A DNA stretch of 45,816 nt, from NCBI GenBank assembly GCA_937922045.1, contig CAKZXA010000059.1, positions 1-45,816 on the forward strand. Direction: 5' to 3'. This document shows, piece after piece, positions 8,338-14,104 of the stretch. The position numbers and the translations under genes are program-made. Position 1 is the stretch's first letter. Each line of letters begins with the position of its first letter. The notes under the pieces are model-generated. The model worked only from the letters and a program-made list of their open reading frames with translations. It did no database searches and was not told where the DNA came from. Origin of the DNA: an uncultured Acidimicrobiales bacterium. Its GTDB lineage: Bacteria > Actinomycetota > Acidimicrobiia > Acidimicrobiales > SZUA-35.

Positions 8338-8868
8338 ATGAAACGTTTCACCCTGAACAAGTCGATCACTGCATTTGGACTCAGCTCGATGCTGGTCCTC
8401 GGCGCAGCCGCTTGTGGCGATGCCGATGAGGTCCTCGACAACGCAGCCGATGCCGCCGGTGATGTCGCAACCGACGCGGCCGATGCTGCTGGTGACGCCG
8501 CCGAGGCAACAGCCGACGCCGCAGGTGACGCTGCTGACGCAACAGCTGAGGCCGCTACCGATGCAGCCGACGCCGCTACCGACACCGCAGAAGAGATGGT
8601 CGAAGACGACACCATGGAAGAAGATGACGCCATGGAAGACGACGCCATGGAAGACGACGCCATGGTTGATGCCCTCAATCCGGCCGATGTCTCCGTCGAA
8701 GATCTCACCTCCGGTCTCGAGATTGCTGGCATCGCTGATGCCGGCACCGTCGCACAGACCATCAAAGACAATGCCCCATTCGCCGACGTTGACGCTCTTC
8801 GGGCCGCCCTTCCCGACGTTGACGACGCGACGTTCGAGCTGATCCAAAAGGTCATCTCGATCGGATAA
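8338..8868 (+). CDS. Ala/Asp/Glu-rich repeat lipoprotein
   Basis: The 176-residue protein has a signal peptide and the lipobox GAAAC with Cys26, so it should sit on the outer face of the membrane. Residues about 29-85 are a low-complexity array of ADAAGDAA-like units, which would form a long, acidic, amphipathic helix. Residues about 86-108 are MEEDDAMEDDAM-type tandem units of 5 residues (15 bases). The C-terminal 60 residues are non-repetitive and resemble a small helical pair: VEDLTSGLEIAGIADAGTV, then PFADVDALRAALPDVDDATF, a layout reminiscent of helix-hairpin-helix proteins. The function is unknown. The transcript ends at a strong terminator 42 bases downstream, so the gene is probably a monocistron. 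Confidence 0.85.
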   Translation: MKRFTLNKSITAFGLSSMLVLGAAACGDADEVLDNAADAAGDVATDAADAAGDAAEATADAAGDAADATAEAATDAADAATDTAEEMVEDDTMEEDDAMEDDAMEDDAMVDALNPADVSVEDLTSGLEIAGIADAGTVAQTIKDNAPFADVDALRAALPDVDDATFELIQKVISIG

Positions 8869-8909
8869 GTGCTAGTTCCCTAGCCAAAACAACCAAAACA
8901 ACCAAATCG

Positions 8910-8955
8910 AAGCCGTCGACTCCATGTCCCTCCGGAGTCGGCGGCTTCTTTTTTT
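8910..8955 (+). terminator. Rho-independent terminator of lipoprotein gene
   Basis: AAGCCGtCGACTCC (8910-8923) pairs with GGAGTCGgCGGCTT (8934-8947), one internal mismatch, 10-base loop, followed by CTTTTTTT. This is the clearest terminator in the window and separates the lipoprotein gene from the arginine operon. Confidence 0.9.
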
Positions 8956-8994: not shown

Positions 8995-9026
8995 CCACCG
9001 CCCCGTCCGACGGTTATGTTGTGTCC

Positions 9027-10274
9027 ATGGCCGTCAACGATGTCGCCACAACCGAACTCAAGCTGCGTCTGGGAAGCGATCTCGATCGGCTCACCGATGC
9101 AGTAACCGCGCTGGCCGAGGTGAACTCCGGCTCCTATAACCCCGACGGGGTCAATCGCTGCGGCGAACGTCTCGCCGAACTGTTAGCTGACCTGAACCCA
9201 GATCGAACCGAAGCGATCGATGTGGCTCCCGCGCTTGTCTTCGGTCCCGACGGGCAACGCAACGAGGCTTCGGTTGGTCGAGCCGTGCGCTCGACCAAAC
9301 GTCCGGATGCGCCCTTTCAGGTCTGCTTCTTTGGTCATGTTGACACCGTGTTCCCGGCCGAGAGTTCCTTTCAATCGGTCTCCCGTGACGGCACCATGCT
9401 GCGCGGCCCGGGCGTCGCCGACTGCAAGGGTGGTCTCGTCCTCGCTATCGAGGTGCTCCGCTACCTCGACACGGTCGACTGGGGCCAGCAGGTCGGTTGG
9501 CAATTTCTGGCCCTCTCCGACGAAGAGATCGGTTCGGCCAGTTCCCTTGGCTTGCTCGACGAGGCCGCAGCCAACCATCATCTCGGCCTCGGCTTCGAGC
9601 CCGCCTTGCCTTCGGGCGGTGTCGCTGGCGCCCGCAAGGGAACCGTGACCGCACACACCATCGTGTCGGGCAAGGCCTCACATGTGGGTCGAGCCCACCA
9701 CGAAGGACGATCAGCCATCCTGGCCCTCGCCCGTTTCATCCAGCGGGTAGAAGCCCTGAATGAACGTGAAGGCGTAACCGTGAGCACTGGCCGTATCTCT
9801 GGCGGCGGGCCTCTCAACGTGGTGCCCGACTTCGCTATCGGCAGCTACAACATGAGGGTGGAAACGACCGAAGACCGAGATTGGGTGAAGGCCGAATTTG
9901 AGAAGGCGGCGTCCGAGCTGCAGGCCGATTCCGAAACCACCCTTGCCTTGACGTGGGCTGGGGAACGCCCCCCGAAGGTTCGTACCAGCGAAATCGATCA
10001 GCTTCTGAGCGATGTGGGCGCAGCGGCCGAAGCTCTCGGTTTTGCCATGCCGGCTGAAGACACCGGTGGATGCTGCGATGGCAACAATCTGGCGGCGGCC
10101 GGGCTTCCAAACGTCGACAGCCTCGGCATCGCTGGAGGTGGTATCCACAGCAGCGATGAGTTCGCCGATGTGGCCAGCATCGCCGACCGGGCGCCCGTTG
10201 TGGCCGAGGTCGTCCGACGAGCCCTCATCCGGCATTCATCCGAGCGCCCTGACGCTGAAGGCAAGCCGCGATGA
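9027..10274 (+). CDS. M20 family metallohydrolase (DapE/ArgE/CPG2-like), putative succinyl-amino-acid desuccinylase
   Basis: Zinc amidohydrolase of about 415 residues. All expected M20 metal-site motifs are visible in order: GHVDTVFP, GPGVADCKGG, SDEEIGS, GFEPALPSG, and GGIHSSDEF near the C-terminus, with an intact dimerisation domain between (VSGKASHVGRAHHEGRSA). M20 enzymes remove acetyl, succinyl or glutamyl groups. The gene is first in an operon with astA and astB (the start of astA overlaps its stop as ATGA), so by context it may remove succinate from N2-succinylornithine or succinylglutamate. That substrate is inferred. The start is ATG 9027; a GTG at 9021 is equally possible. Confidence 0.88.
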   Translation: MAVNDVATTELKLRLGSDLDRLTDAVTALAEVNSGSYNPDGVNRCGERLAELLADLNPDRTEAIDVAPALVFGPDGQRNEASVGRAVRSTKRPDAPFQVCFFGHVDTVFPAESSFQSVSRDGTMLRGPGVADCKGGLVLAIEVLRYLDTVDWGQQVGWQFLALSDEEIGSASSLGLLDEAAANHHLGLGFEPALPSGGVAGARKGTVTAHTIVSGKASHVGRAHHEGRSAILALARFIQRVEALNEREGVTVSTGRISGGGPLNVVPDFAIGSYNMRVETTEDRDWVKAEFEKAASELQADSETTLALTWAGERPPKVRTSEIDQLLSDVGAAAEALGFAMPAEDTGGCCDGNNLAAAGLPNVDSLGIAGGGIHSSDEFADVASIADRAPVVAEVVRRALIRHSSERPDAEGKPR

Positions 10275-11329
10275 CGATGATGTTGCGCCCCGCTCGGCCC
10301 GATGATGCAGGCGCAATCTATGACCTGTTCGCCTCCAGCGCCGACGACCTCACGGGCATGACCTCCCTGCCGCAGACTATGACGGCTGCCGAGAAAATCT
10401 CTGAGGAAACATCGAACACGGTTGCCGAACTGGCAACCGGCTCTTTCGAAATGGTTGACGGTGAAACCAGGCGCCTCCTCTTTATCATCGTCGACACTGA
10501 GAGCGGCCCTAATGGTGAGGCAGATAGTGCTGCGGGCCCCGTTCTCGGCGTTACCGGCATGACCTTCAAAAAGGCGGTACCGAATCTCGCGGTCCGCGTT
10601 ACCACCTCGGGCGACGGCAAGGGTCTGGTCATGCAGTCCATGTCCTCGCTCTGGACACGGACCGAGCTCGACTCGAGCTATCTGGGGCCAAAAGCCAGAG
10701 GTCGGCGAGCCGGGACCTTGCTCTCTCGCGGTCGGTTCATGCTCTTGCAGATCGTGCGACGACAGGTCCCCAACCTTGTCGTGTCCCACCTGCGGGGAGT
10801 CTTCGACGAAGACGGCAACGCCCCCTTCTGGCGGTGTTTCGGCTTGAAGTTCGCTCCCGAGTGGCAGGCATCGCCCGATGCCGAGGCCGCTCTTGAAGCC
10901 GACCCGGCCTTGCTCGACGGTTTGGCTGGCCACATCCTTGAGCTGACCGCGCCCGTCCTCGACTCACTCGGCGCGGTGAACGCAGCATCGCTCCCCGCCT
11001 ACCACCTGCTCCGCAATGAGGGACTCGAACCGAACGGCATGTACGACCCGATCGATGGTGGACCGACGCTGGTGGCCGACATTTCACAGACCTCCTCGGC
11101 GGCCTATCGCCAGCATGGTCGGGCGGTGCTTGGCGATCCGGTCGAGCCGGTCGATGGACTCATCTCGGTCGCAACCGTCGACCGCTTCCGTGTCATCCGT
11201 GCCCCCTTCGACCTGACGGTAAGCAAACGTATCCGCCTCGCCCCGGCCCACGCTGCCGCTCTCGCGGTTCAGCCCGACGCCCTGCTAGCAGCCACCAAAC
11301 TCGGGCCGGTTGGGCGTACCAAACCATGA
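10271..11329 (+). CDS. astA: Arginine N-succinyltransferase
   Basis: First step of the arginine succinyltransferase pathway: arginine plus succinyl-CoA gives N2-succinylarginine. The 352-residue protein shows the AstA hallmarks: N-terminal LRPARPDDAGAIYDL, the SSYLGPKARGRRAGTLLSRG acyl-CoA-binding stretch, RGVFDEDGNAPFWRCFG, and IDGGPTLVADI. It overlaps the M20 gene upstream and astB downstream by ATGA, so expression of the three should be strictly coupled. The pathway is best known from Gammaproteobacteria; presence in an actinomycete-like background is notable. AstA can also act on ornithine in some bacteria (AruF/G), so the substrate range is open. Confidence 0.93.
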   Translation: MTMMLRPARPDDAGAIYDLFASSADDLTGMTSLPQTMTAAEKISEETSNTVAELATGSFEMVDGETRRLLFIIVDTESGPNGEADSAAGPVLGVTGMTFKKAVPNLAVRVTTSGDGKGLVMQSMSSLWTRTELDSSYLGPKARGRRAGTLLSRGRFMLLQIVRRQVPNLVVSHLRGVFDEDGNAPFWRCFGLKFAPEWQASPDAEAALEADPALLDGLAGHILELTAPVLDSLGAVNAASLPAYHLLRNEGLEPNGMYDPIDGGPTLVADISQTSSAAYRQHGRAVLGDPVEPVDGLISVATVDRFRVIRAPFDLTVSKRIRLAPAHAAALAVQPDALLAATKLGPVGRTKP

Positions 11330-12675
11330 CTTCGACATCACCACCCGACGCCAACGTTTTGGAGGTCAACTTCGATGGCCTCGTCGGGCCAACCCATAAC
11401 TATGCGGGGCTTTCGGTTGGCAATCTGGCATCGATGGGCAACGCCGGTTCGGTGTCGAGCCCACGCCAGGCCGCTCGCCAAGGCGTGGCCAAGATGCGCC
11501 ACCTCCACAACCTCGGCGTAGCCCAGGGCGTTCTACCACCACAGCAACGACCCGACCCGGCGGCGATCGAGGCCCTCGGCGCCGGATCGTTGGTGGAGCT
11601 GGCTCGCACCGCTCCAGGCTTGATTCCTTTGGTCATGTCGGCCTCGCCGATGTGGGCGGCCAACGCTGCCACCGTCTCGCCATCCACCGACACGGCGGAT
11701 GGCCGGGTTCACCTCACACCAGCCAACCTGTCGTCCACGCCTCACCGGTCGTTCGAGTCGGTTCAGACCTACCGCATCTTGCGCGCCATGTTCGCTGATG
11801 CGCAACGGTTCTGCGTCCACGCCCCGCTCCCCCTGGCGGCCGCCTTCGCCGACGAAGGGGCGGCGAACCATGGACGCCTCGCCCGATCCCACGGTGAGAC
11901 CGGCCTTCATGTCTTTGTCTTTGGACGCGAGGGCGACGAGCCTGTGAGCGTAGGCGGGTTCCCCCGGCGCCAGACCCATCTCGCTGGCGAGCTGATTAGC
12001 GCAAGCCATCGTCACGATCCTGAACGGGTTCTCTACCTACGCCAGTCGGCGGTTGCGATCGATGCTGGCGCCTTCCACAACGACGTCGTGTCGGTGATGA
12101 ACGAGAACGTGCTCTTCACCCACGCCGACGCCTTCGACGATCCTGGTTCCAGCTACAGCCAGATGGCTGATCTGCTCAGCGCTCTGGGCGGTGAACTGCA
12201 GGTGGTTGAGGTAACTGCCGACCATGTTTCGTTGAGCGACACGATCTCGTCGTATCTGTTCAATTCACAGCTTGTGACCTTGCCCGACGGTTCGGTGACC
12301 CTCATCGCTCCTGGCGAGGTTGGCGAAACAGCGTCGGCGGCCGCCTATCTTGATGCCGCGGTCGATGACCCGGGCAACCCGATCGCTTCGGTCCACCAGC
12401 TCGATTTGCGGGAGAGCATGCGCAACGGCGGCGGGCCGGCCTGTCTACGGCTGCGGGTTGCACTAAGCGCAACCGAACGAGCGGCGCTGAGCGGGCGGGT
12501 CCTGGTCGACGACGGCCTCCTCGACGAACTCGATTCGTGGATCGACCGTCACTACCGCGACGAGCTGCGGCCGGAGGATCTGATCGATCCCGACTTTGTG
12601 GCCGAGACGCTGACCGCGCTCGACGATCTCACCTCGCTGCTCCAACTCGGCGACCTCTACCCTTTCCAGCAGTAG
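11326..12675 (+). CDS. astB: N-succinylarginine dihydrolase
   Basis: Converts N2-succinylarginine to N2-succinylornithine, two ammonia and CO2. The 449-residue protein aligns by eye along the whole AstB family: EVNFDGLVGPTHNYAGLS, SASPMWAANAATVSPS, GRVHLTPANLSSTPHRS, DEGAANHGRL, GAFHNDVVSVMNENVLF and LRESMRNGGGPACLRLRV. The last holds the conserved Cys of the guanidino-modifying-enzyme fold. The C-terminal LGDLYPFQQ is also typical. The ATG overlaps the astA stop. It is the last gene of the operon; a converging gene ends 14 bases away. Confidence 0.95.
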   Translation: MTSTSPPDANVLEVNFDGLVGPTHNYAGLSVGNLASMGNAGSVSSPRQAARQGVAKMRHLHNLGVAQGVLPPQQRPDPAAIEALGAGSLVELARTAPGLIPLVMSASPMWAANAATVSPSTDTADGRVHLTPANLSSTPHRSFESVQTYRILRAMFADAQRFCVHAPLPLAAAFADEGAANHGRLARSHGETGLHVFVFGREGDEPVSVGGFPRRQTHLAGELISASHRHDPERVLYLRQSAVAIDAGAFHNDVVSVMNENVLFTHADAFDDPGSSYSQMADLLSALGGELQVVEVTADHVSLSDTISSYLFNSQLVTLPDGSVTLIAPGEVGETASAAAYLDAAVDDPGNPIASVHQLDLRESMRNGGGPACLRLRVALSATERAALSGRVLVDDGLLDELDSWIDRHYRDELRPEDLIDPDFVAETLTALDDLTSLLQLGDLYPFQQ

Positions 12676-12682
12676 GCGTCGC

Positions 12683-12699
12683 CGACGGCCTAGCCGTCG
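12683..12699. terminator. Possible bidirectional hairpin between convergent genes
   Basis: CGACGGC (12683-12689) and GCCGTCG (12693-12699) form a perfect stem around CTA, which is the stop codon of the leftward deacylase gene. It lies 8 bases past the astB stop. There is no T-run on either strand, so termination is only a guess. Confidence 0.35.
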
Positions 12700-13190
12700 A
12701 TCCGGTTGGCGAGGCCATCGACGACTTCGACGTTTGGATGAGCGGCCAGGGTGGATGGCGGCACCAGAAGCTTGCGATCGCGAGTGCCACCGCCGATGAT
12801 CAGCTTTTCTCGTTCCATCACCGCGGCGTCGATCCAGAGATTGAGTTCGGTGCTCGAACCGAAGGGGGTCACGCCACCGATCTCCATGCCGGTTAGTGCT
12901 TTGGTGTCGTCGGCCGAAGCGAACGACGCCTTGCGCACGCCCAGCTTTTTGCGAACCACCTTGTTCACGTCCAGACGGCAGTTGGCGAGCACGAGACACA
13001 TCACGTGCAGCGCGGGTTCGGCCTTGCCGGTGATGACGATGGCGTTGGCCGAATCGTTGGGCGAGTAACCGTAGGCCTCGCAGAATTGGGCGGTGTCAGC
13101 CAGGCCTGGGTCGCAGGGGACCAATTCGAAGTCGGCACCTTCGATCAGTCCGAGATCCGATAGCTGCGCGAGAACGGGGTCAGCACTCAT
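12690..13190 (-). CDS. YbaK/ProX-type aminoacyl-tRNA deacylase
   Basis: Small cytoplasmic protein of 166 residues in the YbaK/EbsC/ProRS-insertion family, whose members hydrolyse wrongly charged tRNAs such as Ala- or Cys-tRNA(Pro). Visible signatures are DVNKVVRKKLGVRKASFASA with the conserved Lys, TGMEIGGVTPFG (the GxxPFG loop) and LIIGGGTRDRKLLVP. The start is the ATG at 13190. It follows the phzF-like gene by 11 bases, so the two may share a transcript. The exact tRNA substrate cannot be read from the sequence. Confidence 0.88.
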   Translation of the reverse strand: MSADPVLAQLSDLGLIEGADFELVPCDPGLADTAQFCEAYGYSPNDSANAIVITGKAEPALHVMCLVLANCRLDVNKVVRKKLGVRKASFASADDTKALTGMEIGGVTPFGSSTELNLWIDAAVMEREKLIIGGGTRDRKLLVPPSTLAAHPNVEVVDGLANRIDG

Positions 13191-13201
13191 GGTTGGGCAG
13201 G

Positions 13202-14104
13202 CTAACCGAAGACGGAACCGTCGATGCAGGTGATGGCGTCGCCGCCAATCCAGATCTGCTCGTCGGCTTCGTCGACATAGACCCTGCCTTGACGGCCGAG
13301 AGCTGTGCCCTGAGCGGCCACATAGGGCGCCTCCAACGTGCCGTCGCCGAGGAGCCATTGGGCTAGCGCTGCGTTGAGTGATCCGGTGACGGGGTCTTCG
13401 CTGGCTGCGCCGTTCGAGCGGAAGAAGGCGCGAACCTCGATCGACGGTTCACCAGCGCCCGGATCGGTGGGGGTGCGTGCGCCGACCACGCCAACCTTGC
13501 TCGGTGCGTGTGATCCAACAACGCCTATCGGGTGGGGCCCGACAACGCCGATGTCGTAGGACTCGACGGCGGAGAAGTCGGGAGTGAGGGCCAGCACCTC
13601 GTCGGCCGAAGCCAGGCGAACCGCTATCCATCCGGGGCCGTTGTCGGCCCATTGGGCGTCGACGATGGCCTCTCGTTCGAGTCCGAGTACCTTGCAGACG
13701 TCGGACAGTTCCGATTCGGTCACCGGGCCGCCCTTGATCAGCGGTGGCGCGGCGAAGGCGAGACGGCTGCCGGTGCGCCGCAGGTTGACCAGACCGATGC
13801 CGCACTGTTGCACGATGCGGTCGGCTCGCTGAGGTTCGCCTCCGGCCTCAAGCCAGGCATGGCAGGAGCCAATCGTCGGGTGGCCAGCGAACGGCAATTC
13901 GATGGCGGTGGTGAAGATGCGTACCTGATAGTCGGCGGCCGGGTCGGTCGGGGGCAGCAGGAAGGTGGTTTCGCTCAGGTTGGTCCAGTGGGCGAAGCGT
14001 TGCATGTCTTCGGTGCTTAGCGACGATCCGTCCATCACCACCGCCACCGGATTTCCGCAATAGGGCTCGGCCGTAAAGACGTCTACCTGCTTGAAGGGGC
14101 GCAT
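13202..14104 (-). CDS. PhzF family isomerase-like protein with inserted repeat
   Basis: Protein of the diaminopimelate-epimerase fold. The N-terminus FKQVDVFTAEPYCGNPVAVV, the NLSETTFLLPP motif with the catalytic Glu, ELPFAGHPTIGSCHAWLE, and the C-terminal EDPVTGSLNAALAQWL are all present. Most PhzF relatives outside phenazine clusters have unknown substrates. Length 300 is about 20 residues above average, caused by an insertion around residues 190-215 in which GVVGPHP, GVVGSHAP and GVVGART follow one another, a small tandem expansion. The first 22 bases overlap the end of the sigma-factor gene, and the deacylase gene follows. Confidence 0.88.
   Translation of the reverse strand: MRPFKQVDVFTAEPYCGNPVAVVMDGSSLSTEDMQRFAHWTNLSETTFLLPPTDPAADYQVRIFTTAIELPFAGHPTIGSCHAWLEAGGEPQRADRIVQQCGIGLVNLRRTGSRLAFAAPPLIKGGPVTESELSDVCKVLGLEREAIVDAQWADNGPGWIAVRLASADEVLALTPDFSAVESYDIGVVGPHPIGVVGSHAPSKVGVVGARTPTDPGAGEPSIEVRAFFRSNGAASEDPVTGSLNAALAQWLLGDGTLEAPYVAAQGTALGRQGRVYVDEADEQIWIGGDAITCIDGSVFG

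Follow-up and report, generated by a model that had tools for sequence, protein, structure and literature searches.

What does a metallohydrolase gene do in an operon with astA and astB, two genes of the arginine succinyltransferase (AST) pathway? This question is raised by a 45,816-nucleotide stretch of DNA from an uncultured Acidimicrobiales bacterium (GenBank assembly GCA_937922045.1, contig CAKZXA010000059.1), the whole of which we call the window. On its forward strand, a gene for an M20 metallohydrolase (positions 9027 to 10274) is followed by astA, encoding a divergent, probable arginine N-succinyltransferase (10271 to 11329), and by astB, encoding an N-succinylarginine dihydrolase (11326 to 12675). 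Locus labeling over 7 kb gave no match for astC, astD, or astE beside the three genes. We propose that the M20 protein has very probably taken the place of AstE as a nonorthologous N2-succinylglutamate desuccinylase, a substrate suggested by gene context and kinship. The best reading is that the operon encodes three of the five AST activities of a full AST pathway, for which astD and a transaminase gene are unlinked. What would be new here is the nonorthologous swap of one AST enzyme, by a member of a named family without an assigned function.

In the proposed route, AstA would succinylate arginine, and AstB would convert N2-succinylarginine to N2-succinylornithine, two ammonia, and CO2, both as expected from their families. 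A transaminase of the ArgD/AstC type and AstD, the genes for which were found elsewhere in the genome, would then make N2-succinylglutamate. Finally, the M20 protein would hydrolyze N2-succinylglutamate to glutamate and succinate by means of a metal-ion pair and a catalytic glutamate, with the near-invariant residues R203, R222, R277, R314, and K317 presumably holding the three carboxylates of the substrate. An earlier note on this DNA had offered a shorter cycle, in which M20 cuts N2-succinylornithine to ornithine and succinate, such that AstA, AstB, and M20 alone degrade arginine to ornithine.

Intervening steps in the window's genome

The 4.88-Mb genome to which the window belongs as contig C59 (G000) is 96.9% complete. 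In this genome, astD lies at C89:12329-13744, flanked by open reading frames (ORFs) on the opposite strand and unlinked to M20-astA-astB; its product scores 591 bits against a cutoff of 579, and 602 against 514 for NF006992. A transaminase encoded on C18, within an argC-argB-argD-argF cluster, matches TIGR00707, the acetylornithine/succinylornithine family (436 bits; cutoff, 410), and stays below the cutoff of the astC model (337 of 610 bits). AstC over cutoff was found in none of the 12 genomes searched. For AstE, G000 yielded no match to PF04952 and a best TIGR03242 match of 19.8 bits against a cutoff of 305.65, in a genome that, at its level of completeness, may be missing a contig.

These findings bear directly on the short cycle. 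That M20 stands instead of astC, astD, and astE, as the sole partner of AstA and AstB, holds for the operon, and the lack of those genes beside it favors such a cycle. It does not hold for the genome, which has both AstD over cutoff and an ArgD-type transaminase, so a cycle in which M20 takes N2-succinylornithine and AstC and AstD play no part is not supported there; the step without a gene is that of AstE. The earlier note had held that coregulated astC, astD, and astE in the same genome would speak against its cycle; astD and a transaminase were found, and astE was not. Also, an ornithine aminotransferase over cutoff was found in none of the 14 genomes searched, G000 included, and G000 has no protein of the cyclodeaminase family (PF02423) at E 1e-20, both of which count against a cycle that ends in ornithine. 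We consider the short cycle an unlikely account of the operon, and unlikely in G000 in particular.

An M20 protein close to carboxypeptidase G2

The M20 protein is a member of NCBIfam NF005602 (PRK07338), with 385 bits against a cutoff of 357 over positions 15 to 397 of the 409-position profile, and it matches Pfam Peptidase_M20 and M20_dimer. A Pfam search gave no match in it to PF04952, the AstE/AspA domain, which leaves it outside the AstE family. Two better-known identities were tried and rejected: DapE, for which the protein scored 65 of 304, 55 of 284, and 36 of 362 bits relative to the curated cutoffs, and ArgE, for which it scored 42 of 298. The glutamate carboxypeptidase model NF004788 gave 169 of 349 bits.

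Among solved structures, the closest by sequence profile is carboxypeptidase G2 (CPG2; 1cg2 and 6xj5), at E 7e-50, with the next protein at 2.5e-28; identity is approximately 21 to 23%. CPG2 was also closest by Foldseek (E 2e-34) and by VIA-align (Z 42.9; root mean square deviation, 4.0 over 383 residues), where the runners-up were a putative acetylornithine deacetylase (Z 36.0), the best DapE (35.3), and E. coli ArgE (33.4). The AlphaFold model of the M20 protein has a mean predicted local distance difference test score of 94.7. The presence of acetylornithine deacetylases among the M20 relatives is a further point in favor of the short cycle.

Alignment to CPG2 places the metal ligands at H104, D132, E167, E191, and H374 and the catalytic glutamate at E166, roles that we take to carry over from CPG2. 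All six are identical in 90 of 90 aligned M20 sequences, bearing out the earlier note's statement that the set of metal ligands is complete. R203, H219, R222, N264, R277, and K317 are likewise identical in all 90, and R314 is identical in 89. With positions counted by hand, H219, N264, R277, and R314 align with H229, N275, R288, and R324 of CPG2, which we take to be substrate-site residues, R324 presumably being part of the glutamate site. Sequence alignments show no basic residue of CPG2 opposite R203, R222, or K317, and none of the M20 protein opposite K208 of CPG2, presumably the binder of the glutamate side chain. A glutamate-type site with differing positive charges would fit the three carboxylates of N2-succinylglutamate.

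Could the enzyme instead be a broad N-succinyl-amino-acid desuccinylase that takes both succinylglutamate and succinylornithine, with the presence of astD deciding which one matters? Such breadth would account for loci with astD and for genomes without it, but the conserved basic cluster suits a substrate with three carboxylates, and a side activity on succinylornithine would be expected to short-circuit AstC and AstD where they are present. We regard this broad specificity as quite improbable. In the 90-sequence alignment, the conserved residues are alike in loci with astD and loci without it, which argues against the short cycle too; the simplest reading is one reaction for the whole M20 family.

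Association of M20 genes with ast genes

An association between M20 and the ast genes was surveyed at 90 M20 loci: 80 from a scan (the best 80 of 572), 3 from plasmids, 6 sister loci, and the window. Loci were labeled by the ast matches within 7 kb, ignoring order and strand, and several of the poorer ones lie on short contigs. Matches to astA and/or astB were found in 87 of the 90 loci and to astD in 62. By label, astC, astD, astA, and astB occurred together in 5 loci; astA, astD, and astB in 52; astA and astD in 5; and astA and astB in 20, while the remainder had only astA (3), only astB (2), or no ast gene (3). An AstE match of 40 bits was found in none of the 90. The hosts include Maricaulaceae, Hyphomonadaceae, Brevundimonas, Kordiimonas, sphingomonads, Legionella, some other Gammaproteobacteria, and Acidimicrobiales.

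This linkage agrees with the earlier note in that M20 belongs with AstA and AstB, its likeliest role being that of an N-succinyl-amino-acid desuccinylase. The proximity of astD, joined by astC in five loci, argues against the short cycle. It is highly improbable that the M20 gene is a mere neighbor with some other task, such as peptidase activity or folate or dipeptide hydrolysis. Room for such a task is left by the diversity of M20 enzymes and by an NCBIfam name that says only "hydrolase"; however, M20 is linked to astA and/or astB in Acidimicrobiales, Alphaproteobacteria, Legionella, and other Gammaproteobacteria, and in the window it overlaps astA.

To escape the bias of the M20 query, a sample of alphaproteobacterial genomes was drawn by AstB first. 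AstB was present in 12 of 289 genomes, and M20 over cutoff lay no more than 4 kb away in 9 of the 12 (8 of 11 once the seed genome, G448, is set aside). The M20-less genomes were G564 and G668, both with astA-astD-astB, and G558, with a lone divergent AstB. AstE over cutoff was found in none of the 38 genomes searched, of which 35 have M20 beside ast genes and the others are G564, G668, and G558; the single weak match was 31.7 bits. Under the short cycle, any succinylglutamate in these genomes would stay uncut, a further point against it. Neither M20 nor AstE was found in the genomes of G564 (locus L233) and G668 (L234).

The three-gene form occurs in sphingomonads as well as in Acidimicrobiales. 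AstD over cutoff lies elsewhere in all 10 of the sphingomonad genomes tested that have this form (the 12 known loci except L044 and L205), and in the sphingomonad locus L195, AstD adjoins M20. In Caulobacter vibrioides, a control genome, AstB and AstD are over cutoff, NF005602 has a match at E 1e-60, and a genome search for AstE gave no match. At E 1e-60, one of four control genomes had NF005602 over cutoff, a count that is not attributable to a named one.

Plasmids provide a cross-check that agrees with this picture but is weak. Five records have M20 beside AstB, and none of the five is among the AstE matches listed (60 of 64). Of the other 39 plasmid AstB records, 22 are among those listed AstE matches, and 17 lack both an M20 adjoining AstB and a listed AstE match.

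A different arrangement was seen at L132:3815-7602, where a guanine-deaminase-like protein (340 bits; cutoff, 375), M20, and an AstB-like protein are encoded in a row and astA is absent. L131/L057 is arranged in the same way, with M20, an AstB-like protein, and a similar-looking ORF on the 5' side. The AstB-like proteins of L132 and L131/L057 retain the catalytic residues.

Relatives in Acidimicrobiales

The nearest named relatives of the window's M20 protein are from Acidimicrobiales metagenome-assembled genomes. In G416, from the same family as the window, the order is M20-astA-astD-astB; its M20 is 60 to 61% identical to the window's, and both fall in one group of 12 Acidimicrobiales sequences with a Shimodaira-Hasegawa-like approximate likelihood ratio test support of 100. 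G396, from the same genus as the window, has astC-M20-astA-astD-astB, with AstD at 576 bits, slightly below the cutoff. Identity between its M20 and the window's is only 34%, and in the tree the G396 protein falls among the proteobacterial M20s on a long branch of uncertain position; a separate acquisition is possible.

G415, also of the window's family, has astA-astB and then an AstE-like piece at the end of the contig, with a larger piece at the end of another contig; the larger piece scores 281 bits and the smaller 68, against the cutoff of 305.65. No M20 was found in G415 at E 1e-60. In the other 11 genomes searched, AstE gave nothing above 43 bits. When 396 genomes of the phylum were scanned, NF005602 was over cutoff in that of the window alone, and many further matches fell below the cutoff.

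Among the Acidimicrobiales, eight genomes have the three-gene form, and AstD over cutoff is present in four of them (G000, G401, G403, and G405), which shows that an AST operon can take this form while astD lies elsewhere. The earlier note's short cycle is a minor possibility in the other four, which are considered below. G403 has two astD copies (L120 and L121), each over cutoff and neither adjoining the astAB operon. In G405, an aldehyde dehydrogenase gene lies directly 5' of M20-astA-astB (L053:12330-13799); its best model is betaine-aldehyde dehydrogenase, below cutoff, and this genome also has the AstD over cutoff. Another genome, G399 (83% complete), carries astA-astB close to the window's with no M20 adjoining (L049). 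A 238-bit M20 match away from astAB in G399 was taken to be a different M20 protein.

Evidence against an AstE replacement

Several points weigh against the replacement of AstE by M20. First, the other four three-gene Acidimicrobiales genomes have no AstD near the cutoff: G397 (96% complete, with 8% contamination), G406 (98%), G417 (86%), and G445 (no figure). Either another aldehyde dehydrogenase acts in these genomes or the route differs, and the lack of a recognizable AstD there supports the short cycle. All four have cyclodeaminase-family proteins, which would suit that cycle, but so do the AstD-bearing genomes G401, G403, G405, and G416. In the AstD-less lineages, M20 might have shifted to N2-succinylornithine, giving a three-enzyme cycle to ornithine, succinate, and ammonia, with ornithine passing to the cyclodeaminase-family enzyme; we find this scenario doubtful.

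Second, the query alignment of the scan was built from AST-linked M20s, and the loci are the best 80 of 572, so the label frequencies are biased. Third, since G564 and G668 have neither M20 nor AstE, the absence of AstE alone is no proof; a third desuccinylase is possible in these genomes. Fourth, the AstC function of ArgD is assumed from its membership in TIGR00707, and because astD is unlinked in G000, its coregulation with the operon is putative. Finally, the open-access literature yielded no assay of any NF005602 enzyme. Nor did it yield an account of any M20 enzyme as part of the AST pathway, subscription journals being mostly outside this coverage.

AstA, AstB, and the boundaries of the operon

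AstA of the window matches Pfam AstA with 113 bits (cutoff, 29) and is far below the NCBIfam AstA equivalog cutoffs (80 of 391 bits). It is 21 to 26% identical to AstA of E. coli, Pseudomonas, Legionella, and Sphingomonas, and its partner genes and conserved motifs are consistent with AstA. Together with L049 to L051, L054 to L056, L058, L129, and L130, it forms a divergent group from Acidimicrobiales with Asn at the position of E. coli H229, which we take to be an active-site residue. The idea that the divergent group had lost an essential His was dropped, as Asn is also found outside it, in the AstA proteins of L048 and L137. In G396 and G415, AstA is nearer the proteobacterial kind than the divergent group.

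AstB of the window scores 579 bits for Pfam AstB, 571 for NF009789 (cutoff, 452), and 527 for TIGR03241, slightly below 538. It retains E177-H251-C373, the catalytic triad of E. coli AstB. With these residues kept, a dead AstB is unlikely.

The operon has the compact layout that the earlier note had described. The start and stop codons overlap as ATGA at 10271 to 10274 (M20/astA) and at 11326 to 11329 (astA/astB), and the M20 gene has an alternative GTG start at 9021, 6 bases 5' of the ATG at 9027. On the 5' side, RNA folding predicts an intrinsic terminator of the preceding gene on the forward strand at 8909 to 8955, which would set the operon apart from that gene. This hairpin has 15 pairs followed by seven T, with a folding energy of -29.7 kcal/mol and a z score of -4.4; none of 200 shuffles was equally good. 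A simple terminator scanner also finds it, although the regional count of sites is 3 versus 3.2 in shuffles. The strong terminator and the converging gene claimed by the earlier note were both confirmed: the hairpin ends 71 bases 5' of the M20 ATG, and the astB stop is 14 bases from a converging ORF at 12690 to 13358. Directly 5' of the terminator, the ORF at 8338 to 8868 has a highly repetitive middle rich in Ala, Asp, Glu, and Met.

Implications and comparison with known systems

Without an AstE over cutoff, the AST pathway seems to lack its final step in the searched genomes of Caulobacter, Brevundimonas, Kordiimonas, sphingomonads, and Legionella and in most of the Acidimicrobiales covered here. 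If M20 replaces AstE, NF005602 would close this gap and gain a function beyond its present name. This would also mean that succinylglutamate desuccinylase arose independently a second time, within the CPG2 branch of M20.

The canonical AST systems are E. coli astCADBE (L046) and Pseudomonas aeruginosa aruC-aruF-astA-astD-astB-astE (L047). Like these, the window encodes a probable AstA and an AstB, their catalytic residues conserved, and its genome also has AstD and a transaminase of the ArgD/AstC type. Unlike them, it has no AstE and carries M20 in the operon instead, with astD and argD unlinked. AstE (TIGR03242, PF04952) and the M20 protein would share one reaction, from N2-succinylglutamate to glutamate and succinate, whereas their families differ, AstE/AspA for the former and M20 for the latter.

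CPG2 is the nearest solved structure in both sequence and fold, and it resembles the M20 protein in its metal ligands and in the correspondence of R324 to M20 R314. CPG2 releases glutamate, as proposed for M20, but from a different N-acyl group. DapE, the succinyl-diaminopimelate desuccinylase, and ArgE share with the M20 protein the M20 fold and the hydrolysis of N-acyl-amino acids, although the window's protein is well under their cutoffs and more distant from them in fold than from CPG2. A related case comes from Bacteroides, where PMC7311316 describes BT3549 as a predicted, DapE-like N-succinylcitrulline desuccinylase. By that description, BT3549 resembles the proposed M20 enzyme of the window in having been recruited to act on a succinylated intermediate of arginine, and it differs in being biosynthetic and in having succinylcitrulline as its proposed substrate.

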